DNA of 64,000 bases from contig NZ_AP014924.1 of assembly GCF_001544015.1 (NCBI RefSeq), positions 1,054,001 to 1,118,000 of the forward strand, given 5' to 3'. The stretch is from Limnochorda pilosa. Lineage in GTDB: Bacteria > Bacillota > Limnochordia > Limnochordales > Limnochordaceae. Below, piece after piece: positions 10,405 through 25,706 of the stretch. How positions within the stretch are numbered: the stretch's first letter is position 1; each line of letters starts with the position of its first letter. Under the pieces are notes generated by a model. That model did not search any database. It was given only the letters and a program-made list of their open reading frames with translations, and was not told where the DNA came from. The position numbers and the translations under genes were made by a program.

Positions 10405-11472
10405 TCATGAAGGTAGGATGGGCACGTCCATGGGCCGCCCCTCCCGGGCCGAAGCGTATACCGCCAGCACCAGTTCCAGGGCGTCGCGGGCCTCCTGGCC
10501 GCCCACAAGCGGCGGGCGAGCGGTCTGGAGGGCATCGAGGAAGTCGGCGATCTGGGCCCGATGGGCGGCCCAGCCTACGGCGGCCGGATCCGAGGTGCCC
10601 ACTCCGGCAGGGTCCCGCGCCTCCCAGGCGCCCGAGTGCGAGCCCGCGGCTTCCTCGGCCGCTTGCTCATCCTGGAGGTCGACGCGCTCCAGCCGGTCGT
10701 CCTCGATCACCGCGGTCCCCCCGGTACCGAAGAACTCCAGCCGCGTGGAGAGGCCGGGATAGGCGCTGGTGGTGCCCTGGATGGTGCCGAGCGCGCCGCT
10801 TTCGAACTCGACGATGGCCAGCCCCACGTCCTCCGCTTCGATGGCGTGGCTCGCGGTGAGGGTACGGCCGTACACCCGTCGGGGAGGCCCCATCATCCAA
10901 CGCAGCAGGTCGATGGTGTGGATCGACTGGTTGATGAGCGCCCCGCCGCCGTCCATGGCGTACGTCCCCCGCCACCCGCCCGCGTCGTAGTACTCCTGGG
11001 TGCGGTACCACTGCACCACGGCGTTGCCCAGGAAGAGACGGCCCAGCCGCCCGGTGCGGACCAGCTCGTGGACTTGCTGGGAGGCAGGGTCGAAGCGGTG
11101 CTGGAAGACCACGCCCAGGGTGACGCCGTCCTCCCGGCAAGCGGCGATGGCCCGATCCACCCGGGCGAGGCTGATGTCCAGAGGTTTCTCGCAGAGCACG
11201 TGCTTGCCCGCCCGGGCCGCCTCCACCACCAGGTCCGCGTGGGAGCCGCTGGGGGTGCAGAGGCTCACCACGTCCACGTCGTCCCGGCGCAGGAGGGCCC
11301 TGTAGTCCTCCTCCGCCACGCCGCCGAACCGCGCCTGGAGACCCTGGGCCCGTTCGAGGTGAGGATCCGAGAAGCCGACCAGCCGCGCCTCGGGCAGGGA
11401 CGCGTAGGCTTCCGCATGGAGCGGTCCGATGACGCCGCACCCGATGATGGCTACACCGAAGGGACGACTCAC
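10405..11472 (-). CDS. Gfo/Idh/MocA-family oxidoreductase
   Basis: A 355-residue NAD(P)-dependent dehydrogenase. The Rossmann loop GCGVIG is at residues 11-16, and the catalytic CEKPLD motif with Lys96 at 94-99. The C-terminal domain has GGWRGTYAMDGGGALINQSIHTID, including the His-Asp pair typical of inositol and glucose-fructose dehydrogenase relatives. GTG at 11472 follows AAGGGGGG and overlaps the stop of an upstream decayed isomerase/epimerase as GTGA. This places it in a former sugar or cyclitol catabolic operon. Substrate unknown, likely a polyol or sugar. Confidence 0.88.
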   Translation of the reverse strand: MSRPFGVAIIGCGVIGPLHAEAYASLPEARLVGFSDPHLERAQGLQARFGGVAEEDYRALLRRDDVDVVSLCTPSGSHADLVVEAARAGKHVLCEKPLDISLARVDRAIAACREDGVTLGVVFQHRFDPASQQVHELVRTGRLGRLFLGNAVVQWYRTQEYYDAGGWRGTYAMDGGGALINQSIHTIDLLRWMMGPPRRVYGRTLTASHAIEAEDVGLAIVEFESGALGTIQGTTSAYPGLSTRLEFFGTGGTAVIEDDRLERVDLQDEQAAEEAAGSHSGAWEARDPAGVGTSDPAAVGWAAHRAQIADFLDALQTARPPLVGGQEARDALELVLAVYASAREGRPMDVPILPS

Positions 11473-11877: not shown

Positions 11878-13782
11878 TCATCCTACCAGGCCCGGAAGGA
11901 CGTTGACGAACCAGGGTACGTAGGTGACCAGGAGCAGGATCACAAGCATGGCCGGCCACAGGTACAGGAGGGCCCGGCTCGCCTGCTCGATGCGGGTGCT
12001 CCCGATGGCACAGCCCACGAAGAGAGCCGACCCCACCGGTGGCGTGGTGAGGCCCAGACCCAGATTGATGAGCATCACGATTCCGAAGTGGACCGGATCC
12101 ATATTGATGGGCGGCGCCGTCACGATGGGCAGCAGGACCGGCGTGAGAATGAGGATCAGGGGCGCCATGTCCATGACGGTTCCCAGGATCAAGAGAAGAA
12201 CGTTGATCATCAGGAGCAGGACGATGGCATTGTCGGAGATCGAAAGCAGGCCGGCGGCCAGCGTGCTCGGGATCCGCAGGTAGGCCATCAACCAGGCGAA
12301 CGCACTCGCCGCGGCGATCAGGAGGATCACAGTGGCAATCGTCTTCAGGGACTGGATGATGCTACGCCACAGCTTCTTCCAGGTTAGCTCCCGATAGATG
12401 AAGGCGGTTACCAGCAGGGCTGCCAGCGTGCCGATGGCCGCCGATTCGGTGGCTGTGAAGAAGCCGAAGGCGACTCCGCCGACGATGATGAGGCCGACGA
12501 ACATGGCCGGGACGGCGTCCACGAGGATTCGAAGGCTCTCCTTCAGCGGCGGACGCGGCTCAGAAGGATAGCCGCGGCGGACGGCGAGGATGTAGACGAC
12601 GACCAGGAGCGACAGCCCGATCATGATCCCCGGGATGTATCCGCTCAGGAAGAGGGCCCCGATGGAGACGCCCCCTGCAGCAAGGCTGTAGATAACCGCG
12701 TTGTGACTGGGAGGAATGATGATCCCCTGGGTAGAGCTGGCCACGGTGATGGCCACGCTGAAGTCATCGTCGTAGCCCTTCTTCTTCATCATGGGGATCA
12801 CGAGTGAGCCGGTGGCGCTCACGTCGGCCACGGCTGATCCAGAGGCACCCCCGAAGAGCATGGAGTCCACCACGTTCACCATGGCGAGTCCGCCGCGGAC
12901 CGGCCCGACCAGCACCCGGGCGACGTCCACGAACCGCTGCGCGATGCCGCCTTCAGCCATGATCTGGCCCGCCAGGATAAAGAAGGGGATGGCGAGGAGC
13001 GGGATGGAATTGACACCGTTAGCCATCCGCTGGCTCACGATGAGAAGGGGCAACCCAAGGTCCATGGTGGTCAGGAGGGCGGCCACGCCCAGGGCAACGG
13101 AAATGGGAACGCCAAGGAGCAGCATCACCACGAAGGAACCCAGCAGGATCCCAACGGGACCCGATAGCGCCTCCGGACCCAGGACGGCGAACGCTCCGAG
13201 AACGATGAGACCAACGCCCCCTAGAAGGACGGACCATATCAGACGGCGGTTTGCCTGGACCTCCTCGTCGTCGAGTTCCGGGGGCTTCCACGCGTTTCTC
13301 AGCGCGTAGAAGGTGATGAGCAGGCCGCCGACGGGGATGCCCATGTACATCCAGCCGATGGGCATCCCTGATGCGGAGAACGTCTGAAGCATGGTGCGCC
13401 GGGCCAGCTCGTAGCCATAGATCACCAGGTAGACACCGAAGGCGGCCACTACCAGCCAGACAGCCCCGAAAACGATTCCCCGCCACCGCCTGGGAAACTG
13501 GCGAACAAGCACGTCCATGGCCAGGTGCGCCCTGTCTCGGATACCGAGTCCGCTACCGATCATGGCCAGCCAGACCATCAGCACCAGGCTGACCTCTGAC
13601 GTCCACCGGGGCGAATGGATTCCAGGGATATAGCGGGCGATCACCTGCCAACTGATGACCAGCACGATGCCCACCAGGAGCCCGGCGCTCACCCCGTGGA
13701 TGGCCTGGGTGAAACGGATCTCGACCTTCCCGCTCAAGTGGCGGGGGGAAGCGGCGTCACCTGCTTGTTCGGTGGGTTGCAC
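11878..13782 (-). CDS. TRAP transporter, fused small and large membrane subunits (DctQM)
   Basis: A 634-residue membrane protein. Residues about 15-170 form the four-helix DctQ domain (FTQAIHGVSAGLLVGIVLV, PRWTSEVSLVLMVWLAMIGSG). The remainder is the DctM domain with repeated hydrophobic helices and the signatures FGGASGSAVADVSATG, ITVASSTQGIIIPPSHN and LGLTTPPVG. Fused QM proteins are common in sialic acid and C4-dicarboxylate-type TRAP systems. The GTG at 13782 has AGGAGG eight bases upstream. It uses an ion gradient to import an organic acid delivered by the DctP protein encoded just upstream. Confidence 0.9.
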   Translation of the reverse strand: MQPTEQAGDAASPRHLSGKVEIRFTQAIHGVSAGLLVGIVLVISWQVIARYIPGIHSPRWTSEVSLVLMVWLAMIGSGLGIRDRAHLAMDVLVRQFPRRWRGIVFGAVWLVVAAFGVYLVIYGYELARRTMLQTFSASGMPIGWMYMGIPVGGLLITFYALRNAWKPPELDDEEVQANRRLIWSVLLGGVGLIVLGAFAVLGPEALSGPVGILLGSFVVMLLLGVPISVALGVAALLTTMDLGLPLLIVSQRMANGVNSIPLLAIPFFILAGQIMAEGGIAQRFVDVARVLVGPVRGGLAMVNVVDSMLFGGASGSAVADVSATGSLVIPMMKKKGYDDDFSVAITVASSTQGIIIPPSHNAVIYSLAAGGVSIGALFLSGYIPGIMIGLSLLVVVYILAVRRGYPSEPRPPLKESLRILVDAVPAMFVGLIIVGGVAFGFFTATESAAIGTLAALLVTAFIYRELTWKKLWRSIIQSLKTIATVILLIAAASAFAWLMAYLRIPSTLAAGLLSISDNAIVLLLMINVLLLILGTVMDMAPLILILTPVLLPIVTAPPINMDPVHFGIVMLINLGLGLTTPPVGSALFVGCAIGSTRIEQASRALLYLWPAMLVILLLVTYVPWFVNVLPGLVG

Positions 13783-13887
13783 GGAGGTCGCCTCCTGGGG
13801 TCCTGCTCGAGGTGAACCGGCAAAGGAGTCCAAAACGAGAGGAGGCGCGGGGCCCGGCCATCCGGGCACCCGCCCCTGCACGACTCC

Positions 13888-14886
13888 CTACTTGGTGTCG
13901 AGGATCCGCTGCAGAAGGTCGCCGTAGGCCTTGCCGTATTTCTCGTAAAGCGGCCCCATGGCAGCCTGGAACTCCTCGACGTTCACATCGATGATCTCAG
14001 ACCCGGCGGCTTCCACGGCGCGACGGCTCTCGGCGACCAGGTCTCGCCAGAGGGCTGCCTGCACGGGCACACTGGCCAGCGCCGCCTCTCGGATCAAGTC
14101 CTGATCTTCACGGCTGAGCCGGTTCCAGGTCTGCAGGCTGATCATGACGATTTCGGGGACGCGAGCGTGCTGATCGAGACTGAAGTACGGCGCCACCTCG
14201 TAATGGCGAACCCCGCGCGGTCCGTAGGATGGGAAGTTGTTCTCCGCCCCGTCGATGGCCCCGGTTTGCAGTGCACTATAGACCTCCTCGTAGGCCATGG
14301 GGACGGGGCGTGCCCCGAGAGCTTCCATCATGTCCAGCACGACGCGGGACTGCTGGGTACGGATGCGCAGACCCTCCAAGTCCGCCACGTCCCGGATGGG
14401 CTTCTTGTTCGTATAGAAGCTGCGGCTGCCTGAGTCGTAATAGGCCAACCCGACGAGGCCGCTGCCCTTCAGCCCGTCCAGCAACTGCCGGCCGATGGGT
14501 CCCTGGACCACCTTCCACATGTGGGTCTCGTTTCGGAAGATGTACGGGAGGCTGTAGACGCCCATGGGTGCGTAGAACTCGCCCACCGGGCTGGTGGATG
14601 TGCGGACGATGTCGATGACACCCAACTGCACCTGCTCGATGGTGGACCGCTCGTCGCCCAACTGGCCGCCGGGATAGACTTCCATCCGAATACGGCCACC
14701 ACTGGCCGCCTCCAGGTAGTTCGCCATGAAGACGAGCCCCTGGACCGTTGGGTAATCGGGCGGCTGGTTGTCGGCGGCGCGAAGAACGATCTGTTGAGCG
14801 GAGACGAGGGTTGGGGAGAGGATTCCGGACAGTAACGCTACCACAGCCAGCGCAAGGATCGTCCTGGTAACCGTCCTACTTCGCAA
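13888..14886 (-). CDS. dctP: TRAP transporter substrate-binding protein (DctP family)
   Basis: A binding protein of 332 residues with a signal peptide (TILALAVVALLSGILSPTLVSA). Family marks are LRAADNQPPDYPTVQGLVFM, RIRMEVYPGGQLGDE near the first hinge, ADLEGLRIRT with the carboxylate-binding Arg region, and PMAYEEVYSALQTGAIDGAEN. The TTG at 14886 after GGGGCGAAAGGCG gives a compact signal peptide; longer starts add a non-hydrophobic leader. It delivers a carboxylate to the fused DctQM protein encoded 105 bp downstream. The substrate may be a sugar acid, given the divergent iol-type operon, but this is inference. Confidence 0.88.
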   Translation of the reverse strand: MRSRTVTRTILALAVVALLSGILSPTLVSAQQIVLRAADNQPPDYPTVQGLVFMANYLEAASGGRIRMEVYPGGQLGDERSTIEQVQLGVIDIVRTSTSPVGEFYAPMGVYSLPYIFRNETHMWKVVQGPIGRQLLDGLKGSGLVGLAYYDSGSRSFYTNKKPIRDVADLEGLRIRTQQSRVVLDMMEALGARPVPMAYEEVYSALQTGAIDGAENNFPSYGPRGVRHYEVAPYFSLDQHARVPEIVMISLQTWNRLSREDQDLIREAALASVPVQAALWRDLVAESRRAVEAAGSEIIDVNVEEFQAAMGPLYEKYGKAYGDLLQRILDTK

Positions 14887-15197
14887 CGCCTTTCGCCCCT
14901 TTCCGTCATCTTGCGGCGCAATACCTGTGGCACCGTCGCCAGGCTGCGTCGCTCCGACCGGCGCCTGCCGGAAGCGCCGACTTCTGCACAATCAATGAGT
15001 TCTCGCATCGCGGCCCATATCCTTCCGACTGTGTTGATATATGTTGCATAGCGGGCAGGAACGGACACATGGGTGAAGAATGCATCCTATGTTGGTGCAG
15101 GTCAACGTCGCTCTGGCGTGCTGCCGGAGAGCGCGAAAGCCGCTGTGCGGGTGCGTGACAGTGCCAGGTCATGCAACACCACGGTAGGAGGTCCGTC
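14887..15197. promoter_or_regulatory. Divergent intergenic region, dctP / deoR
   Basis: This 311-bp gap separates the minus-strand TRAP operon from the plus-strand iol-type operon and must hold both promoters. The only AT-rich island is around 15031-15050, with GTTG-ATATAT-GTTG as a 10-bp-spaced direct repeat (15033-15046), a possible regulator site. No coding sequence or clear -35/-10 pair was recognised. Confidence 0.35.
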
Positions 15198-16001
15198 ATG
15201 CTCGCCGTCGAGCGCAGGCAGCGGATGCTCGAACTGCTGCAGAAGCACCATCAGGTGGAGGTCCGGGAGGTTTCCCAGCTCCTGGGGGTCACGCCCGAGA
15301 CGGTACGTCGCGACCTCCGCCTGCTCGAGGAGGAAGGGATTCTCGAGCGGGTCCACGGGGGGGCGCGCCTGCTCGTCCCCGGCCAGGCCGCTCCCCCCTT
15401 CTCCGCCCGGAAGGTCGCCCACCTGGCCGAGAAGCGGGCCATCGCCCAGGAAGCCCTCCGGCGGCTCGAGGACGGTGACGCCGTCGCCCTCGACACGGGC
15501 ACCACGGTGCTGGAGCTGGCGCGGCGACTAGGCGAGCGGCATCTCTCGGTGCTCACCTACGGGATCACCCTTGCCCACGAGCTGGCCCGGTTCCCCCACC
15601 TGCGGGTGCACGTGGTGGGTGGGACCCTCTACCCCTCCGAGGAGACCCTGGTGGGGAGCGAGGCCGTGGGCGCCATCCGCCGCTTGCGGGTCGACAAGGC
15701 TTTCATGGCCTGTGCCGGCGTCGATGCCGAGTACGGGCTCACCGTCTCCAACTCGCTGGAAGCGGAGGTGAAGCGGGCGCTGGTGGCCAGCGCGGGGAAG
15801 GTCTACCTGCTGGCCGACTCGTCCAAGTTCCGGCGCCGGGGGCTCGTCTCCTACGCCCGGCTGGAGGAGATCGACGTGGTCATCACCGACGAGGGAATCG
15901 ACCCGGAAAGTGCGGAACTCGTGCGTGGGGCGGGTGTGGAGCTGATCGTGGCCCGCACGTCGCCCGGGAGCGACCACGCGGGGGAGGGGATGGAACGGTG
16001 A
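15198..16001 (+). CDS. DeoR-family transcriptional regulator, IolR-like
   Basis: A 267-residue regulator. An N-terminal winged helix-turn-helix (residues 3-55) ends in GVTPETVRRDLRLLEEEGILERVHGG, the DeoR signature. A C-terminal sugar-phosphate sensor domain with IAQEALRRLEDGDAVALDTGTTVLEL and VVGGTLYPSEETLVG follows. ATG at 15198 is seven bases after TAGGAGG. It is the first gene of an operon with IolB, a sugar kinase and an aldolase. By analogy with IolR it probably represses the operon until a phosphorylated intermediate binds. Confidence 0.9.
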   Translation: MLAVERRQRMLELLQKHHQVEVREVSQLLGVTPETVRRDLRLLEEEGILERVHGGARLLVPGQAAPPFSARKVAHLAEKRAIAQEALRRLEDGDAVALDTGTTVLELARRLGERHLSVLTYGITLAHELARFPHLRVHVVGGTLYPSEETLVGSEAVGAIRRLRVDKAFMACAGVDAEYGLTVSNSLEAEVKRALVASAGKVYLLADSSKFRRRGLVSYARLEEIDVVITDEGIDPESAELVRGAGVELIVARTSPGSDHAGEGMER

Positions 16002-16864
16002 ACCTGCGGATCCGTAAGCCGCTGGGCGACGGCCTCACGCCGCTGGTGGACCGCCCCATGGAGGGTATCGAGCGCATCCACCTGTTCACGCTCCGTCTCG
16101 GGCCGGGCCAGGCCTACACGTGGGAGGGCGAGCCGGGGCGGGAGAGCGGGCTGGTCCTCCTTCAGGGCGGGTTCGACCTTGAGGCCGGGGGGGAGCGCGT
16201 GGAGGGCCTGGGCCCGCGCCCCGACGTCTTCAGTGCCCCGGCCACCGCCGTCTACCTTCAGCCCGGTGCGGGTGCCCGGATCACCGCCGGCACCGAAGGG
16301 GTAGAACTGGCCGTGGCCACCGCCCCCGTGCCTGTGGGCACCGGAACGGGGAACGGCCGAACCGGCGGAGGGGTCCCAGGCCGAACCCATCAGATCGTGA
16401 CGCCTCAGGACATCATCACGCACCGGGGCCGCGGCGGGCCGCACTTCACCCGCGACGTCTTCGACGTCATCGGATCCCAGGTGCCGGCGGCCAGCCTCAT
16501 CGTGGGCGAGACCTTCAACCGGTCCGGCGAGTGGTCCAGCTACCCGCCCCACAAGCACGACCGGCATCGCCCACCTGAAGAGGTGAAGATGGAGGAGGTC
16601 TACTTCTTCCGTTTCCGGCCCCGCACGGGCTTCGCCCTCCAGCGGATCTACACGGAGGATCGAAGCGTGGACGAGGCGTACGTGGTGGAGCAGGACGACT
16701 GCATGCTCCTGCCGAAGGGATACCACCCCGTGGCGGCGGCTCCGGGGTACGTGGCCTACTACCTGTGGGTGCTGGCCGGCGAGGGGCGCGAGCTCCGGCC
16801 CTACGACGATCCCACCCACGCCTGGGTGGGGCGCGCGGGTGCGCCTCGCGACCTTCATGAATGA
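15998..16864 (+). CDS. iolB: 5-deoxy-glucuronate isomerase
   Basis: A 288-residue double-cupin protein of the IolB family, which converts 5-deoxy-D-glucuronate to 5-dehydro-2-deoxygluconate in myo-inositol catabolism. The C-terminal cupin has the motif YPPHKHDRHRPP followed by EEVYFFRF, with metal-ligand His and Glu residues, and later QDDCMLLPKGYHP. Length is close to the usual 270. The GTG at 15998 overlaps the regulator's stop as GTGA. It is followed by a kinase and an aldolase suited to the next two steps. Confidence 0.92.
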   Translation: MNLRIRKPLGDGLTPLVDRPMEGIERIHLFTLRLGPGQAYTWEGEPGRESGLVLLQGGFDLEAGGERVEGLGPRPDVFSAPATAVYLQPGAGARITAGTEGVELAVATAPVPVGTGTGNGRTGGGVPGRTHQIVTPQDIITHRGRGGPHFTRDVFDVIGSQVPAASLIVGETFNRSGEWSSYPPHKHDRHRPPEEVKMEEVYFFRFRPRTGFALQRIYTEDRSVDEAYVVEQDDCMLLPKGYHPVAAAPGYVAYYLWVLAGEGRELRPYDDPTHAWVGRAGAPRDLHE

Positions 16865-18329
16865 AGGATCCGCCGGCACCTGGCAGGCTCTGGCCGAGGA
16901 GGCGGTGGCCGGGAGCCGCCAGGCCCTCCCGCAGGCGGGCGGCGCCGCCCTCGCCTTCCACTCGGTGGCCGACGGGCTGGTCCACCTGGACGGACCGCGG
17001 GTGGCCCGCCTGGTGGCAGGTGCCGGGGGAGAGGCCGTTGCCGCCCCGCTCCTGGACCAGCCCCGGCCGCCGAAGGCGCTTCACTCCCCCAAGGACCTGG
17101 TCGCGGCCCTCCTCTTCTCGCTCCAGCGGGGCCAGGCGCTCCAGCGGATGATCGTTCACGCCCCGCTGCACCGCTGGCTGCAGGAGGTGCTCGGTTACGA
17201 CGAGCTCCGCCTGGGCGGGACCTCGGCCAACATGGCGGTGGCCGTGGCCAGCCTCGGCATCGATCCCACCATCGTCTACGCCTACCCACCCAGCCGGCGG
17301 GTGGCCTCCCTCTTTCCGCCGCTCCCGGGCCTACGCGCCTTCACCGGCAGGCCTGGCAACCCGCTCCTCCCCGTGAGCGACTGGGCGGGCAGCCTGCCGC
17401 GTGATGAGTCTCCCGAGTCGCCCCTCCACTGGATCCTGGAGTACGGACCGGAGATGGAGGTGCAGGTGGGTTCGCTGCGGCTCCGGCCGCCGCGGGCCAA
17501 CCGGTTCATCGCCGGGTGGAACCCCGCCAACCGCCGCCTCCGGCTGGAGCCGGCGTTCGTGGACGGCCTGGAGCGGGAGGCGGGAAGGCTCGGGTTCTTC
17601 TTCCTTTCAGGCTACCACATCCTGGCCGAAGGGGATGAGGGGGGCGAAGCAGGGTTTACCGAGGCCGTCGGATCTACGGCCACCCTGGTCGACCGGGTGC
17701 GCCGGGCGAACCCCAGGGTGACCGCGCACCTGGAGATGGCCTCCATCGGGAGCGAGGCGGTGCGCCGGGAGGTTCTGACGCGAGTCGTTCCCCGGGTCTC
17801 GAGCGTGGGGATGAACGAGGCCGAGTTGGAGACGATCGCGGCAGACCTGGGAATCCCCTGGTTTAGCCCAGGGAGCGGCGCAGACCGCCTGGCCCGTCTG
17901 GTTCGCGCCACGCTGGAGGTCTCCCGGGTAACCGGTCTTCGGCGGATGCACGTGCACGATCTCGGCAACTACGCGATCGTCCTGGGCGGTGGTCAGGACG
18001 AGGGTGAAGCCGTCGCTGCTCGCGCCGGCCTCCTCTTCGCCGGGGCGGTAGCGGCGGCCCGGGCGCGGACCGGCGAGCTCTCCCCCAGGAGCGGCCAGGA
18101 CAGCCTCGCGGAGCCCTTCTCGCCCGAAGGGCTCCGGAGGTTGGAGCGCCTGGATGAAGTCCTGGCCGAGAAGGGCGCGGAACGGCGTGGCCCCGGGATC
18201 TGGCGGCTGACCGAGCGGTGGATCGTCGCGGTCCCCAGCCGGGTGGTGGAGAGGCCCAGGCGCACCGTGGGCTTGGGGGACACGATCTCCGCTTCCGCCC
18301 TTCTGGCGGAGACGGCGCTGCGGCGCTGA
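16857..18329 (+). CDS. ADP-dependent sugar kinase (ADP-GK/PFK family), probable IolC substitute
   Basis: A 490-residue protein of the ADP-dependent glucokinase/phosphofructokinase family. Key marks are LGGTSANMAVAVASLG, the metal-binding NxxE in VGMNEAELETIAADLG, HVHDLGNYAIV, and the catalytic GxGD in VGLGDTISASAL near the C-terminus. Such kinases use ADP as phosphoryl donor and are best known from archaea. The position between IolB and an aldolase suggests it phosphorylates 5-dehydro-2-deoxygluconate, the step done by ATP-dependent IolC elsewhere. The ATG at 16857 overlaps the iolB end; GTG 16839 is possible. No good SD is seen, so coupling to iolB is likely. Confidence 0.75.
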   Translation: MNEGSAGTWQALAEEAVAGSRQALPQAGGAALAFHSVADGLVHLDGPRVARLVAGAGGEAVAAPLLDQPRPPKALHSPKDLVAALLFSLQRGQALQRMIVHAPLHRWLQEVLGYDELRLGGTSANMAVAVASLGIDPTIVYAYPPSRRVASLFPPLPGLRAFTGRPGNPLLPVSDWAGSLPRDESPESPLHWILEYGPEMEVQVGSLRLRPPRANRFIAGWNPANRRLRLEPAFVDGLEREAGRLGFFFLSGYHILAEGDEGGEAGFTEAVGSTATLVDRVRRANPRVTAHLEMASIGSEAVRREVLTRVVPRVSSVGMNEAELETIAADLGIPWFSPGSGADRLARLVRATLEVSRVTGLRRMHVHDLGNYAIVLGGGQDEGEAVAARAGLLFAGAVAAARARTGELSPRSGQDSLAEPFSPEGLRRLERLDEVLAEKGAERRGPGIWRLTERWIVAVPSRVVERPRRTVGLGDTISASALLAETALRR

Positions 18330-18428
18330 TCCGGCCGCAACGATGCCGGCCTTGGAGACGGCGGCGCTTGGAAACCGCGAAGACTCGACACGTCTGGATG
18401 GACGTCTGGAATCAGGAGGAAGGCACCT

Positions 18429-19496
18429 GTGCACCCCAACGAGGAGACGTCGCCCCACACCCTTCCGTACGCGCCACCCAAGACCCCATTCGAGACGCGG
18501 AGGTTCCTGCCGGAGGAGCTCTTTGGCCAGATCACGGAAGTGCGGGTGCGCCAGCCGGAGCTGATCCGGCGTCTGGCCGCCTCCCGGCTCCGGCGCCAAG
18601 AGCTCACCCTGGACGGCCGTCTCGCGCTGGTGGCGGCGGACCACCCGGCCCGGCGGGTGACGTCCGCGGCCGGGGACCCCTACGCCATGGCGGATCGCTT
18701 CCAGTACGTGGGGCGGGTGGCGCGGGCGCTGGCTGCTCCTGGCGTGGACGGGGTGATGGCCACCGCCGACGTGGTGGAGGAGCTTCTGGTCCTGGACCAC
18801 CTCTTCCGCCGATCCGGGCGCCCCGGTTTCCTGGAGGGCAAGGTGATCGTGGGCAGCGGCAACCGGAGCGGCCTGCGAGGCGCCCGCTTCGAGCTGGACG
18901 ACCGCCCCACGGGCTACACGCCCGACTGGGCCCAGGCCATGGGGCTCGACGGGCTCAAGGTGCTGATCCGCATCGACCTCCAGGAACGCGACTCGGTGGC
19001 CACCCTGGCCCGGATCGCAGCCGAGGTGCGGGAAGCTCAGGCCCGCGACCTGCCTGTCTTCGTCGAGTTCCTGCCCGGGCGCATGACGCCCGAGGGCTTC
19101 CGGGTGGAGGCGACGGTCGAGGCGCTCATGGAGGCGGCCGGGGTGGCCGCCGCGCTGGGGGGCACCAGCGCCCGCACCTGGCTGAAGCTCCCCTACGTGG
19201 AGGGCTACCCGCGGATCGCCCGGGCCACGACCCTGCCCATCCTCATGCTGGGCGGGGAGACGGAGGCCACCCCCGTTCCGGTGCTGGAGGACTTCGCCCG
19301 GGGGATGGGCGCAGGCCCCACCGTGCGGGGGGTCATGGTAGGCCGCAACGTGCTCTTTCCGGGCACCGACGACCCCCTGGCCGTGGCCGGCGCCGTGGCC
19401 CGGATCGTCCACGACGGCGCCTCCGCGGCCGAGGCGCTGGACGTCCTGCATGTCCTGCGGGGCCGGGGCCTCCGGAGCGGCACCCGGACCTCCTAG
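18429..19496 (+). CDS. Cgl0159-family (beta/alpha)8-barrel aldolase
   Basis: A 355-residue TIM-barrel protein related to Cgl0159-type and DeoC/FBA-like aldolases found in inositol clusters. Segments typical of the family are LDGRLALVAADHPARRVT, VIVGSGNRSGLRG, GLDGLKVLIRIDL, the strand WLKLPYVEGYPRIA with a candidate Schiff-base Lys, and PILMLGGETEAT near the phosphate site. GTG at 18429 follows AGGAGGAAGG. It probably cleaves the phosphorylated deoxy-keto acid made by the preceding kinase, taking the role of IolJ. It ends the operon. Confidence 0.8.
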   Translation: MHPNEETSPHTLPYAPPKTPFETRRFLPEELFGQITEVRVRQPELIRRLAASRLRRQELTLDGRLALVAADHPARRVTSAAGDPYAMADRFQYVGRVARALAAPGVDGVMATADVVEELLVLDHLFRRSGRPGFLEGKVIVGSGNRSGLRGARFELDDRPTGYTPDWAQAMGLDGLKVLIRIDLQERDSVATLARIAAEVREAQARDLPVFVEFLPGRMTPEGFRVEATVEALMEAAGVAAALGGTSARTWLKLPYVEGYPRIARATTLPILMLGGETEATPVPVLEDFARGMGAGPTVRGVMVGRNVLFPGTDDPLAVAGAVARIVHDGASAAEALDVLHVLRGRGLRSGTRTS

Positions 19497-20337: not shown

Positions 20338-21054
20338 ATGAGCACTACCGTGCTGGTTACCGGTTTCGAGCCGTTCCTCACGTTTCCCGTCAATCCCAGC
20401 GGCCAGATCGCTGCGGCCCTGGACGGTGAGGCGCTGGGTACGGGCCGGGTGGTGGGGCGGGTACTCCCCGTGGCCTACGAACGCGCGGGGGAGATGGTGG
20501 AGGCACTCCTCGACGAGCTCCGCCCCGATGCCGTGGTGGCCCTTGGGCTCGCCGCCGGGCGAGAGCGGATCTGCTTCGAGCGAGTGGCCATCAACTGCAT
20601 GGACGGCGAGGTGGACAACCAGGGCGTCCGCCACCAGGACGAGCTCATCGATCCCCAGGGGCCGGCCGCCTACTTCACCACCCTGCCGATCCGGGCCATG
20701 GAGGAACAGCTTCGGGCCGAGGCGATCCCCGCCGCCATCTCGAACACGGCCGGAACCTACCTCTGCAACTACGTGATGTACCGGCTCCTCCACCACCTGA
20801 GCCGCACTGGCCGACGGATCCCGGCTGGTTTCGTCCACCTGCCCGCGTCCCACGATCTGGCCGTCGCCCTGGAGCGGCCGGTACCGAGCTGGCCCGCGGA
20901 CGACCTGAAACGCGCCACTGAACGATCCGTGGAAGCATTGCTTGGGTGGATGGCGACTTCCTCATCCACGGGGCCGTCTTCGGAGCCGCGGAACACGCCA
21001 CATGGGCATGCTCTACGGTGGGGAAGGGGGCGAGGGTATGCTCACCCGCATTGA
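20338..21054 (+). CDS. pcp: Pyroglutamyl-peptidase I
   Basis: A 238-residue C15 cysteine peptidase that removes N-terminal pyroglutamate. It opens with VLVTGFEPF (substrate pocket). The catalytic triad is visible as Glu in GRERICFERVAIN, Cys in NTAGTYLCNYVMY and His in GFVHLPASHD. Typical enzymes have about 215 residues; the last 30 here are low-complexity and run into the start region of the next gene, overlapping it by 17 bp. The ATG at 20338 fits the family N-terminus; a weak ribosome site suggests coupling to the preceding small gene. Confidence 0.92.
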   Translation: MSTTVLVTGFEPFLTFPVNPSGQIAAALDGEALGTGRVVGRVLPVAYERAGEMVEALLDELRPDAVVALGLAAGRERICFERVAINCMDGEVDNQGVRHQDELIDPQGPAAYFTTLPIRAMEEQLRAEAIPAAISNTAGTYLCNYVMYRLLHHLSRTGRRIPAGFVHLPASHDLAVALERPVPSWPADDLKRATERSVEALLGWMATSSSTGPSSEPRNTPHGHALRWGRGRGYAHPH

Positions 21055-22408
21055 GATCGATGGCTTCAAGAGTTTCTCGGGTTTCGGTCTGGACATTGCT
21101 CCTTTCGAGGTGATCCTTGGTCCTAACGCTTCAGGTAAGTCAAATCTCTTCGACGCCATTCGACTGCTATCTCGGCTTGCAGACACCGACCTGCGTACAG
21201 CCGTGAAGGGCCTACGTGGGGAACCTCATGAGCTTTTCCGCCGGCTACCTGATGGAACCCCAAGTGCCCGCATGGCGTTTGCTATCGAGGTTCTTCTTCA
21301 TCCCACGGTAACGGATCCATGGGGCGCGACCAAACCTATCTCGCACTCGCGGGTCCGATACGAGGTTGAGATCGAGCGGCGCCGTGATGCACGGGGAATC
21401 GAACGTCTGGTCGTCGCACGAGAGGACGCACGTCCCATCCTCAGCACGCACGATACGTGGAGGCCGGGGGGCCGGGATCTTTCGCCGCAGTTCCGGCAGG
21501 CGTTCATGAAGTACGGTCGCCGAACGCCATGGCTGTCCACGGTCGAGACTGAAGGTGTACCAAGCTTCCAGATTCACCAGGATGGGCGCGCTGGTCGCAA
21601 GCGACCGGCAGAGGCTGCAGAGGCAACAGTTCTCTCGAGCATCACCAGCGCTGAGTTCCCACACCTTTACTCGCTACATGAGGAGCTTCGTTCGTGGCGT
21701 TTTATTCAGCTCGATCCAGCTGCACTACGGCGGCCCAGCCCGGTGACCGCCTCCGATGAGTTGGAACCTGACGGTTCGAACCTCGCTACTGTTCTGGCGC
21801 GAATCAAGGCCGAGACAGCAACAACGGTACAGCCAAAGGGGATGCTGGCAGATATCGTCGCCGACCTCACGGCCTTGATTCCAGGCGTCGTTGATGTAAG
21901 CGTGGAAGAAGACCGACGCAACCGTGAGTACCGCATCGACGTCGCCATGAGGGGCGGCCCGCCGTTCAGCTCCAGGGTCATCTCCGACGGAACGCTGCGA
22001 ATCCTTGCGCTCCTGACCCTGCTTCACGATCCCAAGCAACGAGGTCTGGTCTGCTTCGAGGAACCCGAGAACGGGGTTCACCCCGCGCGCTTGAAGGAGC
22101 TCATCAAGCGCCTGCGAGCCTTGGTCACTGATCCCTCGATCCCCGAGCTCGATGACACCGATGCTCTCTCGCAAATCCTTGTCAACAGTCACTCGCCCGT
22201 CGTGCTCTCCGCCCTGGGTGATGACCAAGCTTTGTTTTCTGACCTGGTGGCAGAGGTTGATCCGCACGAGAAAACGGTCTCGTACAAGACGCGTATTCGT
22301 CCCATCGAGCCTGAGGACCAGGGCGAACTGTGGCTGGATGATTCACGCTCCTATGTGAGCCGGTACGAAGCAGAACGATACTTGTCCACGGCAGTCAGGG
22401 AGTACTGA
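21038..22408 (+). CDS. AAA_21/ABC-type ATPase of a predicted two-gene defence module
   Basis: A 456-residue SMC/OLD-like ATPase. It begins LTRIEIDGFKSFSGF, with Walker A GPNASGKSN at 28-36, an inserted coiled or lid region of about 250 residues, Walker B LVCFEEPENGVHP and the sensor His in ILVNSHSPVVLS. This arrangement belongs to AAA_15/AAA_21 ATPases that pair with TOPRIM-like effectors. ATG 21038 follows GGGGAAGGGGGCGAGGG. The next gene, a DUF4276 protein, starts four bases after the stop. Base composition is less GC-rich than the neighbours, hinting at acquisition by transfer. An anti-phage role is inferred. Confidence 0.8.
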   Translation: MLTRIEIDGFKSFSGFGLDIAPFEVILGPNASGKSNLFDAIRLLSRLADTDLRTAVKGLRGEPHELFRRLPDGTPSARMAFAIEVLLHPTVTDPWGATKPISHSRVRYEVEIERRRDARGIERLVVAREDARPILSTHDTWRPGGRDLSPQFRQAFMKYGRRTPWLSTVETEGVPSFQIHQDGRAGRKRPAEAAEATVLSSITSAEFPHLYSLHEELRSWRFIQLDPAALRRPSPVTASDELEPDGSNLATVLARIKAETATTVQPKGMLADIVADLTALIPGVVDVSVEEDRRNREYRIDVAMRGGPPFSSRVISDGTLRILALLTLLHDPKQRGLVCFEEPENGVHPARLKELIKRLRALVTDPSIPELDDTDALSQILVNSHSPVVLSALGDDQALFSDLVAEVDPHEKTVSYKTRIRPIEPEDQGELWLDDSRSYVSRYEAERYLSTAVREY

Positions 22409-22411
22409 GTC

Positions 22412-23092
22412 GTGCGCTTCCTTGGCCTCGCCCTCTTCGCTGAGGGACCCACCGACTACCGATTCCTGGGACCGTTGCTCCGACGGGTTACGGAGGACCT
22501 GTGCCTGAGAGAGGCATCGGAGTCCGTTGAGATCACCGAAGTGCTCGCGTTGGTCAGGTCCAGGGAATCGGCAAGCCTCCCGCGTGAGCTCCAGATCCTT
22601 GACGCGATGCGCCGCGCCTCTGGAGCGTTCTCACTGCTTTTCATACACGCCGATGGTTCGGGGGATCCCGTGGCCGCGCGGAAGCATCAGGTACAACCTG
22701 CGATAAGCCGCATCTTGGAGCACGGGGGCCCCTCGGGCGTGGGAGCCGTTCCGGTGATTCCCGTCAGGGAGACCGAAGCGTGGGCCCTTGTCGATGGACA
22801 AGCCCTTCGTCGGGCTTTCGGCACAAGCCTTGATGATGCTGAGCTCGGACTTCCCCCGCGACCAGCAGACGTGGAGAGGATCCCGGACCCGAAGGCTGCG
22901 CTGGACCATGCATGCCGCATCGCGATCGGCGCGGGGCACAGGCGAAGGCGTCGCGCTGCGGCGTTCTTGGAGGCTATAGCCGAGTCCCTCTCCCTTGACC
23001 GGTTGCAGCAGGTTCCCGCCTTTCGCCAGTTCGAACAAGACCTACGCGATGGCCTTGAGATTCTGCGCGTGCTACGAGGAGCGCACGGGTGA
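22412..23092 (+). CDS. DUF4276 TOPRIM-like protein, partner of the AAA ATPase
   Basis: A 226-residue protein of DUF4276 type. The N-terminal strand RFLGLALFAEGPTDYRFLGP carries the conserved Glu11 and ends in a helix, like the Glu of TOPRIM nucleases (OLD, RloB). IHADGSGDPVAARK near residue 75 supplies acidic residues, and PVIPVRETEAWALVD is a family hallmark. GTG at 22412 is almost directly after the ATPase stop, so the pair is translated together. In comparable pairs the TOPRIM-like subunit is the nuclease or toxin effector; here this is inference. Confidence 0.75.
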   Translation: MRFLGLALFAEGPTDYRFLGPLLRRVTEDLCLREASESVEITEVLALVRSRESASLPRELQILDAMRRASGAFSLLFIHADGSGDPVAARKHQVQPAISRILEHGGPSGVGAVPVIPVRETEAWALVDGQALRRAFGTSLDDAELGLPPRPADVERIPDPKAALDHACRIAIGAGHRRRRRAAAFLEAIAESLSLDRLQQVPAFRQFEQDLRDGLEILRVLRGAHG

Positions 23093-23170: not shown

Positions 23171-23983
23171 TCACCCGCCAACGGTCCTGAGCAGATGGGA
23201 TACCCTTTCCGCTGCGGCCAGGACTTCGGGCGCCAGGGTGCTCACCCGGTCGGCCGTCAACCGGGACGAGGGCGCCGAAAGGCTGAGCGCAGCCACCACC
23301 TCGCCCTGACGGTCACGGATGGGTGCCGCGATGCACCGCACCCCGAGCTCCCGTTCCTCGTTGTCGACCGCGTAGCCCTGGTCCCGGATCGCGTCCAGCT
23401 CCCGGTGAAGCTCGGTGCGGCGTGTGAGCGTGTTGGGGGTGTAGTGGGTCCAGGGACCGGGCCCCATCACCCCGTCCACCTCCTCGGGTGAGAGCCATGC
23501 CAGGAGGATCTTGCCCACGCCGGTACAGTGGAGGGGCGTACGGGCGCCGATCTGAGTGAACATGCGCAGGAGCTGCTGTCCCTCCGCCTGGGCGACGTAG
23601 ACGGCGTCCGATCCGTCGCGCACGGCCAGGTTCACGGTCTCCCCCAGGTCCCGGGCCAGATCCTTCATCACCGGCAGGGCCAGCTCGTTCAGGCGGAGCC
23701 GAGGCAGGAAGGCGCTGCCCACCTCGAAGGCTCGTACGCCCACGTGGTAGCGGCCTGTTTCGTCGGAGGGCTGGACGAACCGGCGGGACCTCAACGTTTC
23801 CAGCAGGCGGTAGGCCGTGCTGACGGGCAAGCGCACGCGCTCGGCGATCTCGCTCAGGGTGAGGCCGGGCTGGTCGGTCAGGGCTTCCAGGATGGAAAGG
23901 CCCCGGTCGAGCGCCCGCACGCCTCCGCTCTGGGTCCGGGTCCGGCGGCGCCCGCCCCGGCGGGCCGTAGGTTCCGGCATCAT
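23171..23983 (-). CDS. IclR-family transcriptional regulator
   Basis: A 270-residue regulator. After a basic RRGGRRRTRTQ tail it has the IclR winged helix (RALDRGLSILEALTDQPGLT, LSEIAERVRLPVSTAYRLLETL). The effector domain follows, with LHCTGVGKILLAWL and IRDQGYAVDNEERELGVRCIA typical of the family. Two adjacent ATG codons follow GGGGGAAGAG; the second (23980) has slightly better spacing. It is divergent from malate synthase, and IclR controls glyoxylate-bypass genes in enterobacteria, so it probably regulates that gene and itself through the palindrome at 24008-24023. Confidence 0.9.
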   Translation of the reverse strand: MMPEPTARRGGRRRTRTQSGGVRALDRGLSILEALTDQPGLTLSEIAERVRLPVSTAYRLLETLRSRRFVQPSDETGRYHVGVRAFEVGSAFLPRLRLNELALPVMKDLARDLGETVNLAVRDGSDAVYVAQAEGQQLLRMFTQIGARTPLHCTGVGKILLAWLSPEEVDGVMGPGPWTHYTPNTLTRRTELHRELDAIRDQGYAVDNEERELGVRCIAAPIRDRQGEVVAALSLSAPSSRLTADRVSTLAPEVLAAAERVSHLLRTVGG

Positions 23984-24007
23984 CTCTTCCCCCTTCACTT
24001 CAGCCCG

Positions 24008-24023
24008 TTTCCGTATAACGAAA
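24008..24023. promoter_or_regulatory. Candidate IclR operator
   Basis: TTTCCGTATAACGAAA is a near-palindrome (TTTC, TATA and GAAA symmetric) 14 bp upstream of the -35 box of the malate synthase promoter and within the IclR 5' region. Size and position suit an IclR-type site. Confidence 0.45.
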
Positions 24024-24037
24024 ATACCATCTATCTG

Positions 24038-24066
24038 TTGACAAAGCAAGCGCGCGGGGGTATCTT
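24038..24066 (+). promoter_or_regulatory. Promoter of malate synthase
   Basis: Perfect TTGACA (24038-24043), 17-bp spacer, TATCTT (24061-24066), 45 bp upstream of the ATG. Confidence 0.75.
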
Positions 24067-24110
24067 TTTAGCGAAAACTCAGCATCACACCAGAGGTGGG
24101 GGGCGCTTCC

Positions 24111-25706
24111 ATGGTGACCCTGGAGGGGATCGACGTTCGAGGCCCGGTGGAGGGCCCGTTCAAGGAGATCCTGACACCTGACGCCCTGGCCTTCGTGGCG
24201 GGGCTTCACCGGGAGTTCAATCCCCGGCGGGAGGAGCTCCTCCGCCGGCGGGCCGGGCGCCAGGCCCGCTTCGATGCTGGCGAGCTGCCCGACTTCCTGC
24301 CCGAGACCCGCTCCGTCCGGGAAGGCGACTGGAAGGTGGCGCCCATCCCCCCGGCCCTCCAGGACCGCCGGGTTGAGATCACCGGTCCCGTGGACCGCAA
24401 GATGATGATCAACGCCCTCAACTCCGGGGCGAAGGTCTTCATGGCCGACTTCGAGGACGCCCACTCGCCCACGTGGGCCAACACCCTGCAGGGGCACGTC
24501 AACCTAATCGACGCGATCGAGCGGACCATCGCGTTCACCAGCCCCGAAGGGAAGCAGTACCGGCTGAACGAGGAGGTGGCCGTGCTCCTGGTGCGGCCCC
24601 GGGGCTGGCATCTCGTGGAGAAGCACGTCCTGGTCGACGGCAGCCCCATCTCCGCCTCCCTCTTCGACTTCGGTCTCCACCTCTTCCACAACGCCCGGCG
24701 CCTCATGGACCGGGGCAGTGGGCCCTACTTCTACCTGCCCAAGCTGGAGAGTCACCTGGAGGCCCGGCTCTGGAACGACGTCTTCAACGCCAGCCAGGAC
24801 CGGCTGGGGATCCCCCGGGGTACCATCCGCGCTACGGTCCTCATCGAGACGATCCTGGCCGCCTTCGAGATGGAAGAGATCCTCTACGAGCTGCGGGACC
24901 ACTCGGCCGGCCTCAACGCCGGGAGGTGGGACTACATCTTCAGCGTCATCAAGAAGTTCCGGAACCGGCCCGACTTCCTCCTCCCCGACCGGGCCCAGGT
25001 GACCATGACCGTCCCCTTCATGCGGGCCTACACCGAGCTCCTGGTGAAGACCTGTCACCGCCGGGGCATCCACGCGATCGGCGGCATGGCGGCCTTCATC
25101 CCCAGCCGGCGGGATCCCGAGGTGAACGAGAGGGCCCTGGCAGGCGTTCGGGACGACAAGCTGCGGGAGGCGGGCGACGGTTTCGACGGCACCTGGGTCG
25201 CCCACCCGGACCTGGTGCCCGTGGCGATGGAGGTCTTCGACGCCCGGCTGGGGGAGCGGCCGCACCAGCTCGACCGCCTGCGGGAAGAGGTGCAGGTGAC
25301 CGCCCAGAACCTGCTGGACGTGCGGGTCCCCGGCGGCAGCATGACCGAGGCGGGCGTGCGCAACAACGTGAGCGTGGCCATCCAGTACCTGGAGTCCTGG
25401 CTGCGGGGCGTGGGCGCGGCCGGCATCTTCAACCTCATGGAGGACGCGGCCACCGCCGAGATCGCCCGCTCCCAGGTGTGGCAGTGGCTTCGCCACGGGG
25501 CAACCCTGGCCGACGGGCGCCGCTTGAGCCGGGACCTGGTCCGTGCCTTCGAAGAGGAGGAGCTGGCCAAGGTGCGCCAGGCGGTGGGCGACGACCTCTT
25601 CGGGCGGGGGCGGTTCGACGAGGCCCGGGCGCTCTTCGAGCGGGTGGCCGTCGCTGCCGAGTTCGCCGAGTTCCTGACGATCCCGGCCTACGAGCTGATC
25701 GACTAG
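24111..25706 (+). CDS. aceB: Malate synthase A
   Basis: A 531-residue enzyme condensing glyoxylate with acetyl-CoA to malate. It shows the malate synthase signature [20 protein letters not shown] (Mg and catalytic loop), [58 protein letters not shown], and the C-terminal catalytic Asp region [19 protein letters not shown]. Length matches the A isoform. ATG 24111 is preferred; GTG 24096 lies within the ribosome site GGTGGGGGG. No isocitrate lyase is nearby, so glyoxylate may come from another source such as glycolate or purines. Control by the divergent IclR protein is likely. Confidence 0.95.

Follow-up and report, generated by a model that had tools for sequence, protein, structure and literature searches.

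Limnochorda pilosa carries, at 15198-19496 of a 64,000-nucleotide stretch of its genome (NZ_AP014924.1, positions 1,054,001 to 1,118,000 of the forward strand; hereafter the window), four tightly packed genes for a regulator, an IolB-family protein, an ADP-dependent kinase and a Cgl0159-type aldolase. A first-pass annotation of the window had read them as an inositol (iol) operon in which the ADP-dependent kinase stands in for IolC. All four genes were found where that annotation had placed them, in a genome that consists of a single contig of 3,817,036 bases and is listed as 99.95% complete. Judged from sequence comparison and structure prediction, we favor a different role, at odds of roughly two in three: the locus would encode the central steps of a hexuronate pathway in which an ADP-dependent kinase phosphorylates the ketouronate, and by which the bacterium would degrade pectin-type sugar acids.

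Gene organization of the locus

The four genes are collinear on the forward strand, with overlaps or short gaps between them. A DeoR-family transcriptional regulator (15198..16001; PF00455 and PF08220, DeoRC E-value 5e-50), which exceeds no equivalog cut-off, has a Shine-Dalgarno-like GGAGG just 5' of its ATG near 15198. It is followed by a KduI/IolB-family protein (15998..16864; PF04962, E-value 2e-69), a predicted hexuronate aldose-ketose isomerase; we call it IolB2, our own name for a second IolB type outside the clade of genuine IolBs. Next is the PF04587 ADP-dependent kinase (16857..18329; E-value 1e-57), predicted to act on a ketouronate. Its open reading frame (16839-18329) opens at GTG 16839, and the start is probably ATG 16857, which overlaps the isomerase stop by 8 bases. 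The last gene encodes a Cgl0159-type class I aldolase (18429..19496; PF22649, E-value 2e-73), a predicted ketouronate-1-phosphate aldolase, with AGGAGGAAGG 5' of its GTG start.

Divergent from this operon, on the reverse strand, lie genes for a tripartite ATP-independent periplasmic (TRAP) transporter and an IolG-like dehydrogenase. The transporter comprises the substrate-binding protein DctP of a predicted hexuronate importer (13888..14991; PF03480 and NF037995) and a fused DctQ-DctM permease (11878..13881; PF04290 and PF06808). The dehydrogenase, of the Gfo/Idh/MocA family, is a possible feeder enzyme (10405..11472; TIGR04380, 181.7 bits against a cut-off of 355). The scans for promoters and terminators, which were uninformative, gave no matches to either.

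A second IolB type and a kinase with an altered pocket

The window isomerase passes the IolB profile TIGR04378 marginally, at 205.5 bits against a cut-off of 205. A search with this profile in 398 genomes of the phylum gave scores that split in two: eight matches at 324-376 bits and, after a gap, matches from 243 bits downward, the window protein among them. In a tree of 41 proteins (L113, L110 and L107 were left out), six genuine IolBs formed one clade with support of 100/100 that excluded the window protein. All six carry V170, V172 and N257. The IolB2 sequences from clusters with tagaturonate reductase (UxaB) or an aldolase have G170 (21/21), T172 (19/21) and W257 (21/21), the same residues that are found in the window isomerase. 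Since the cut-off of 205 bits falls within the IolB2 score range, these proteins are likely misnamed 5-deoxy-glucuronate isomerase by annotation. This cut-off lets in many IolB2 proteins, and genuine IolBs scored at least 324 bits in this sample.

We examined the genomic context of 30 of the 34 IolB matches at 142-243 bits outside L. pilosa (G341, G149, G375 and G319 were left out; some regions share a genome, two in G298 and three in G114), and of three of the eight top-scoring matches. UxaB adjoins IolB2 in 10 of the 30 regions, and each of these ten also holds an altronate/galactarate dehydratase-family gene; several IolB2 regions include candidates for 2-keto-3-deoxygluconate kinase and aldolase, and a TRAP transporter. 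The window DctP is 47-52% identical to DctP proteins beside the IolB2-UxaB clusters of L139, L140, L142, L146 and L151. Tagaturonate reductase exceeds its cut-off in all ten IolB2-UxaB genomes (in L137, UxaB scores 683 against 359), and UxaC was found in 0 of the ten. IolD was absent from all 30 IolB2 regions, whereas the three genuine IolB regions each have it. Because the UxaB genomes lack UxaC, IolB2 is a candidate uronate isomerase, and in our view most likely a replacement hexuronate isomerase. According to PMC3578941, KduI of E. coli, a protein in this Pfam family, helps to convert galacturonate and glucuronate.

The window kinase passes the PF04587 gathering threshold (195.7 versus 27 bits) and falls under all NCBIfam equivalog cut-offs, namely TIGR02045 (161 versus 408) and the ADP-glucokinases (148 versus 387 and 143 versus 554). 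Its structure model (mean predicted confidence, pLDDT, 89.2) superimposes on 6xio (Z 45.3, root-mean-square deviation 2.2, 451 residues) and on 6c8z (Z 48.2, deviation 5.3), a whole-length match to the ADP-kinase family. The catalytic motifs GLGD, NxxE and HxE are kept. At the second position of GXGD, where Ile or Leu is given as typical of ADP-dependent superfamily members in passages of PMC5931981, the window kinase has Leu, with which its predicted use of ADP fits.

The fructose 6-phosphate (F6P) contacts of 6xio were mapped onto the window kinase through a HMMER alignment. The residues that passages of PMC7948494 give as contacting the F6P phosphate, N32, N34, E90, K179, N181 and Q244, are all six replaced, by H41, V43, Q102, P195, H197 and H260, respectively, and two further F6P contacts are changed (Q116 to T128 and R212 to N228). 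The catalytic residues D36, R206 and D471 are unchanged (D45, R222 and D481 in the window kinase). In window numbering, the kinase is like known ADP-dependent glucokinases and phosphofructokinases (PFKs) of PF04587 in its fold, in the GXGD, NxxE and HxE motifs and in D45, R222 and D481, but differs from them in its replaced pocket residues and in its place in a catabolic operon with an aldolase. The active site appears to fit neither glucose nor F6P, either of which, as a strict specificity, the first-pass annotation had named as counting against its reading.

The changed pocket recurs in 33 of 35 kinases of a group that we call clade 2 (H at N32, V or T at N34, Q at E90, T at Q116, A or P at K179, H at N181, N at R212 and H at Q244). 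Six PFK-type kinases retain K, N and R, among them a copy in the L. pilosa genome itself, at 1321555 (L044). The residue alignment comprised 44 rows after removal of 7 duplicates from 51, and the tree, which omitted five further rows (the incomplete L092 and L094, and L060-L062 of a third type), separated the clade-2 and PFK-type groups with full support. The genome has two PF04587 paralogs besides the window kinase: the one with PFK-type residues (G000:C1:1321555-1322973, L044) and a clade-2 variant in which three pocket positions are E, N and Q (3495965-3497347, L045).

Recurrence of the kinase-aldolase slot and predicted fate of the products

The window aldolase passes the PF22649 gathering threshold (244.3 versus 27), matches 3fok (Cgl0159) with a phmmer E-value of 6e-55 and is 47-52% identical to aldolases that are paired with an ADP-kinase or IolB2 elsewhere. 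The arrangement of IolB2, ADP-kinase and aldolase was found again in other lineages. The kinase occurs with a Cgl0159/DhnA-type aldolase, or with the isomerase, in L064, L066, L047/L071 and L077/L079/L082 (the last three are close relatives, counted as one lineage), so the four-gene arrangement is beyond chance.

The genes that make up the pair vary. ADP-kinases accompany a Cgl0159- or DhnA-type aldolase in the window, L064, L047/L071 and L077/L079/L082, and a class II aldolase of the fructose-bisphosphate aldolase type in L066. In L144 and L162 a PFK-family kinase (PF00365, PRK14072 group) stands with a Cgl0159 aldolase, and FGGY kinases are found with a class II aldolase (L141 and L160) or a Cgl0159 aldolase (L145). 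Region L143 has IolB2 and an aldolase with no kinase seen, and L153 (G190) has IolB2 with neither. As unrelated kinases and unrelated aldolases fill the same slot, we argue that selection would keep the slot itself, kinase then aldolase. The PRK14072 group kinases in these IolB2-aldolase clusters (L144:470-1681 and L162:4679-5902) belong to a group of diphosphate-dependent PFKs, and a pyrophosphate (PPi)-dependent ketouronate kinase is a possibility there. Relatives of the window IolG-like dehydrogenase, 42-51% identical, lie in the ADP-kinase clusters L047, L049, L077, L079 and L082; this enzyme may bring inositols or glycosides into the pathway.

The complete L. pilosa genome has no match to UxaC and none to Mannitol_dh_C, the UxaB/UxuB family, so a ketouronate formed there would be without a recognized reductive exit. 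Among 13 other genomes, six with ADP-kinase clusters and seven with IolB2 but no nearby UxaB, tagaturonate reductase exceeded its cut-off in none and UxaC was present in one. In L077, L079 and L082, genes for a relative of glyoxylate/hydroxypyruvate reductase and a glycerate kinase come almost directly after the kinase gene (in L077, 447.8 against a cut-off of 455 and 490.6 against 168, respectively). L. pilosa encodes a reductase 60.8% identical to that of L077 (~266402-267376), its gene overlapped by one for a xylose-isomerase-like protein (~267373-268293), and a glycerate kinase at 2971892 (488 bits). The xylose-isomerase-like protein is 47% identical to the product of the gene after the L064 aldolase and 37-40% identical to a domain fused N-terminally to the aldolase in L143 and L145. 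This reductase operon has a GntR-type regulator, which matches UxuR and ExuR below threshold. The L064 genome has UxaC, no UxaB over cut-off and, on the same contig as UxaC, a tartronate semialdehyde reductase over both cut-offs (423.8 versus 397 and 366.5 versus 340.75). A glycerate end fits a non-deoxy ketouronate phosphate that is cleaved to dihydroxyacetone phosphate (DHAP) and tartronate semialdehyde.

Genes for PIG-L-type deacetylases were also seen at two places, near the L. pilosa reductase operon (L176:4503-5405, bacillithiol deacetylase-like, below cut-off) and, by eye, adjoining IolB2 in another Limnochordales genome (L153:10386-11165).

From the gene identities, the linkages, the presence and absence of pathway genes and the changed active site that we observed, we infer every reaction of the following scheme, as well as the phosphorylated carbon, the stereochemistry and ADP as the donor. 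The TRAP transporter would import a hexuronate of the galacturonate or glucuronate type, which IolB2 would convert to a ketouronate, tagaturonate or fructuronate. The PF04587 kinase would use ADP to phosphorylate this ketouronate at its terminal hydroxymethyl group, with ketouronate 1-phosphate and AMP as the products, and the Cgl0159-type aldolase would split the ketouronate 1-phosphate into DHAP and tartronate semialdehyde. The second operon, with its xylose-isomerase-like protein and its glyoxylate/hydroxypyruvate-family reductase, and the glycerate kinase would then take the C3 acid to glycerate and on to 2-phosphoglycerate.

Alternative substrates and relation to known pathways

Several observations weigh against this scheme. 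Among solved structures, the aldolase is closest to that of an "uncharacterized protein Cgl0159", whose gene presumably belongs to an inositol cluster, a point in favor of the inositol-operon reading. The IolG-like dehydrogenase is frequent in ADP-kinase and IolB2 clusters without having a firm place in the pathway. Nor do the xylose-isomerase-like proteins have a firm place; such a protein could convert tartronate semialdehyde to hydroxypyruvate or epimerize ketouronates. The L. pilosa reductase scores 413.7 against a family cut-off of 455, and 14 of the 30 IolB2 regions lack both UxaB and an aldolase. Among the 35 clade-2 kinases, 7 are near an aldolase; because 5 are near a transketolase and 23 near neither, the clade may cover several substrates. 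In the tree, the kinases linked to an aldolase are not united as one clade (3 changes). The clade-2 kinases beside a transketolase are those of L056, L085, L088, L089 and L091, and include that of Athalassotoga saccharophila (Thermotogota, complete genome).

According to the first-pass annotation, the ADP-kinase would replace IolC in an inositol operon and phosphorylate 5-dehydro-2-deoxygluconate. On this model, taken as one of myo-inositol breakdown, the aldolase would yield DHAP and malonate semialdehyde. In its favor, the isomerase is just over the IolB equivalog cut-off, an IolG-like gene is close by, and Cgl0159 aldolases are presumably located in corynebacterial inositol clusters. The kinase also sits in an IolC-like slot, between the IolB-family isomerase and the aldolase, has no match to IolC (TIGR04382) itself, and is not accompanied by an IolC over cut-off elsewhere in the genome, the presence of which had been named as evidence against the replacement; the best IolC candidate, at 3165476 (L046), was rejected at 162 bits against a cut-off of 300. 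The replacement of IolC therefore holds in form, but the substrate is probably not 5-dehydro-2-deoxygluconate. In the complete genome IolE (24.8 versus 290 bits) and IolD (233 versus 715) are under cut-off, and in six genomes that carry related kinase-aldolase clusters IolD exceeds its cut-off in none. The isomerase does not group with the genuine IolBs, and its type is linked to tagaturonate reductase and not to IolD. The glycerate kinase and reductase that end the related operon are consistent with a C3 product that is not deoxygenated rather than with malonate semialdehyde. An inositol operon is very unlikely on this evidence, and assignment of the operon to the inositol pathway is most likely wrong. 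The IolD candidate itself (1326627, L044) adjoins carB-like and serA-like genes, as read from their open reading frames, and is probably an acetolactate synthase.

A route from inositol or another polyol by steps like those of Thermotoga, in which IolG-type oxidation and ring opening give 5-keto-L-gluconate, an IolO-like enzyme epimerizes it to tagaturonate for the ADP-kinase and aldolase, and IolB2 serves as a side entry for galacturonate, would accommodate the IolG-like genes of several ADP-kinase and IolB2 clusters. Passages of PMC5931981 list 5-keto-L-gluconate and tagaturonate as T. maritima intermediates, and an IolO-like TIM barrel is present in L077 (120.7 versus 300 bits), with weaker matches in L064 (50.3 bits) and in L. 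pilosa (34.6 bits). Such IolO scores are far under the cut-off, and no enzyme for the ring opening was identified (no search for IolM and IolN was made in the L. pilosa genome), making this route unlikely. It is somewhat less likely that the kinase acts on a non-uronate ketose, a glycoside sugar or an amino-sugar acid, with the aldolase giving DHAP and some other aldehyde: clade-2 kinases are found also with transketolase and with GH4, L047 has a heparinase II/III-like gene and a PIG-L-type deacetylase gene lies near the L. pilosa reductase gene, but IolB2 is tied to tagaturonate reductase in ten regions and also to a TRAP protein of the kind encoded in the window. A heparinase or unsaturated-uronate pathway, suggested by L047, was rejected on chemical grounds, as cleavage of its 3-deoxy diketo product could not release DHAP. 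Finally, the shared family and fold speak for an ordinary ADP-dependent glucokinase or PFK that lies in the operon by chance; the loss of all six F6P-phosphate contacts, including K179 (P195 here), the separate PFK-type copy (K, N, R) at 1321555 (L044) and the association with isomerase and aldolase genes across several lineages render this barely credible.

The phosphorylating hexuronate pathway that we favor has counterparts in part. It shares with the lower myo-inositol pathway (IolB-IolC-IolJ) the sequence of aldose acid to ketose acid, kinase and DHAP-forming aldolase, as well as the isomerase family and, presumably, the aldolase family of the inositol pathway in Corynebacterium. It differs in having no IolD or IolE over cut-off, a divergent IolB2, a PF04587 kinase instead of IolC, and a predicted substrate that is not deoxygenated and would yield tartronate rather than malonate semialdehyde. 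The Ashwell pathway (UxaC-UxaB-UxaA-KdgK-Eda) has the same first step, from hexuronate to tagaturonate or fructuronate; here IolB2 would take the place of UxaC, and the ketouronate would be phosphorylated and split, not reduced and dehydrated. The galacturonate pathway of Lactobacillus suebicus likewise has a kinase for a C6 sugar acid derived from galacturonate, but as described in passages of PMC6978723 it is mannonate, after the reduction, that is phosphorylated and enters the phosphoketolase pathway, with no ketouronate phosphate and no aldolase step. The T. maritima inositol pathway resembles ours in its unusual phosphoryl donor and its course via tagaturonate; its kinase TM0415, in the account given in passages of PMC5931981, is PPi-dependent, has a smaller lid, belongs to the wider ribokinase superfamily and was assayed with myo-inositol.

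Shortly downstream of the aldolase, two adjacent genes (window 20942-23092) match the PADLOC candidate defense system HEC-01 (HEC-01A, 661.8 bits; HEC-01B, 272.9 bits), and at 23171-25706 a regulator that by eye is IclR-family-like is divergent from malate synthase A (833 bits).

In the open-access literature that we searched, we found no ketouronate kinase, no ketouronate 1-phosphate, no route of this kind from hexuronate to tartronate semialdehyde and DHAP, and no ADP-dependent 5-dehydro-2-deoxygluconokinase. Among the listed papers since 2014 on IolB-like or KduI-like proteins in connection with tagaturonate, no title or opening of an abstract describes this route. The text of a paper on Limnochordia (PMC11456536) contains none of the terms ADP-dependent, inositol, galacturon- or glucuron-, and the passages of a 2019 review (PMC6353982) that name isomerase and oxidative bacterial routes include none through a ketouronate phosphate. 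We lean slightly toward regarding the pathway as hitherto undescribed, with a kinase step filled separately by PF04587 ADP-kinases, by PF00365 PFK-type kinases that perhaps use PPi and by FGGY kinases, with a new activity, the ADP-dependent phosphorylation of a ketouronate, in the ADP-kinase family and with IolB2 commonly standing in for UxaC in Bacillota. Few sugar acids are as common as galacturonate and glucuronate. PMC7948494 describes the ADP-kinase family with only glucokinase, phosphofructokinase and bifunctional members; a third class of substrate, if true, would change the annotation of its bacterial members.

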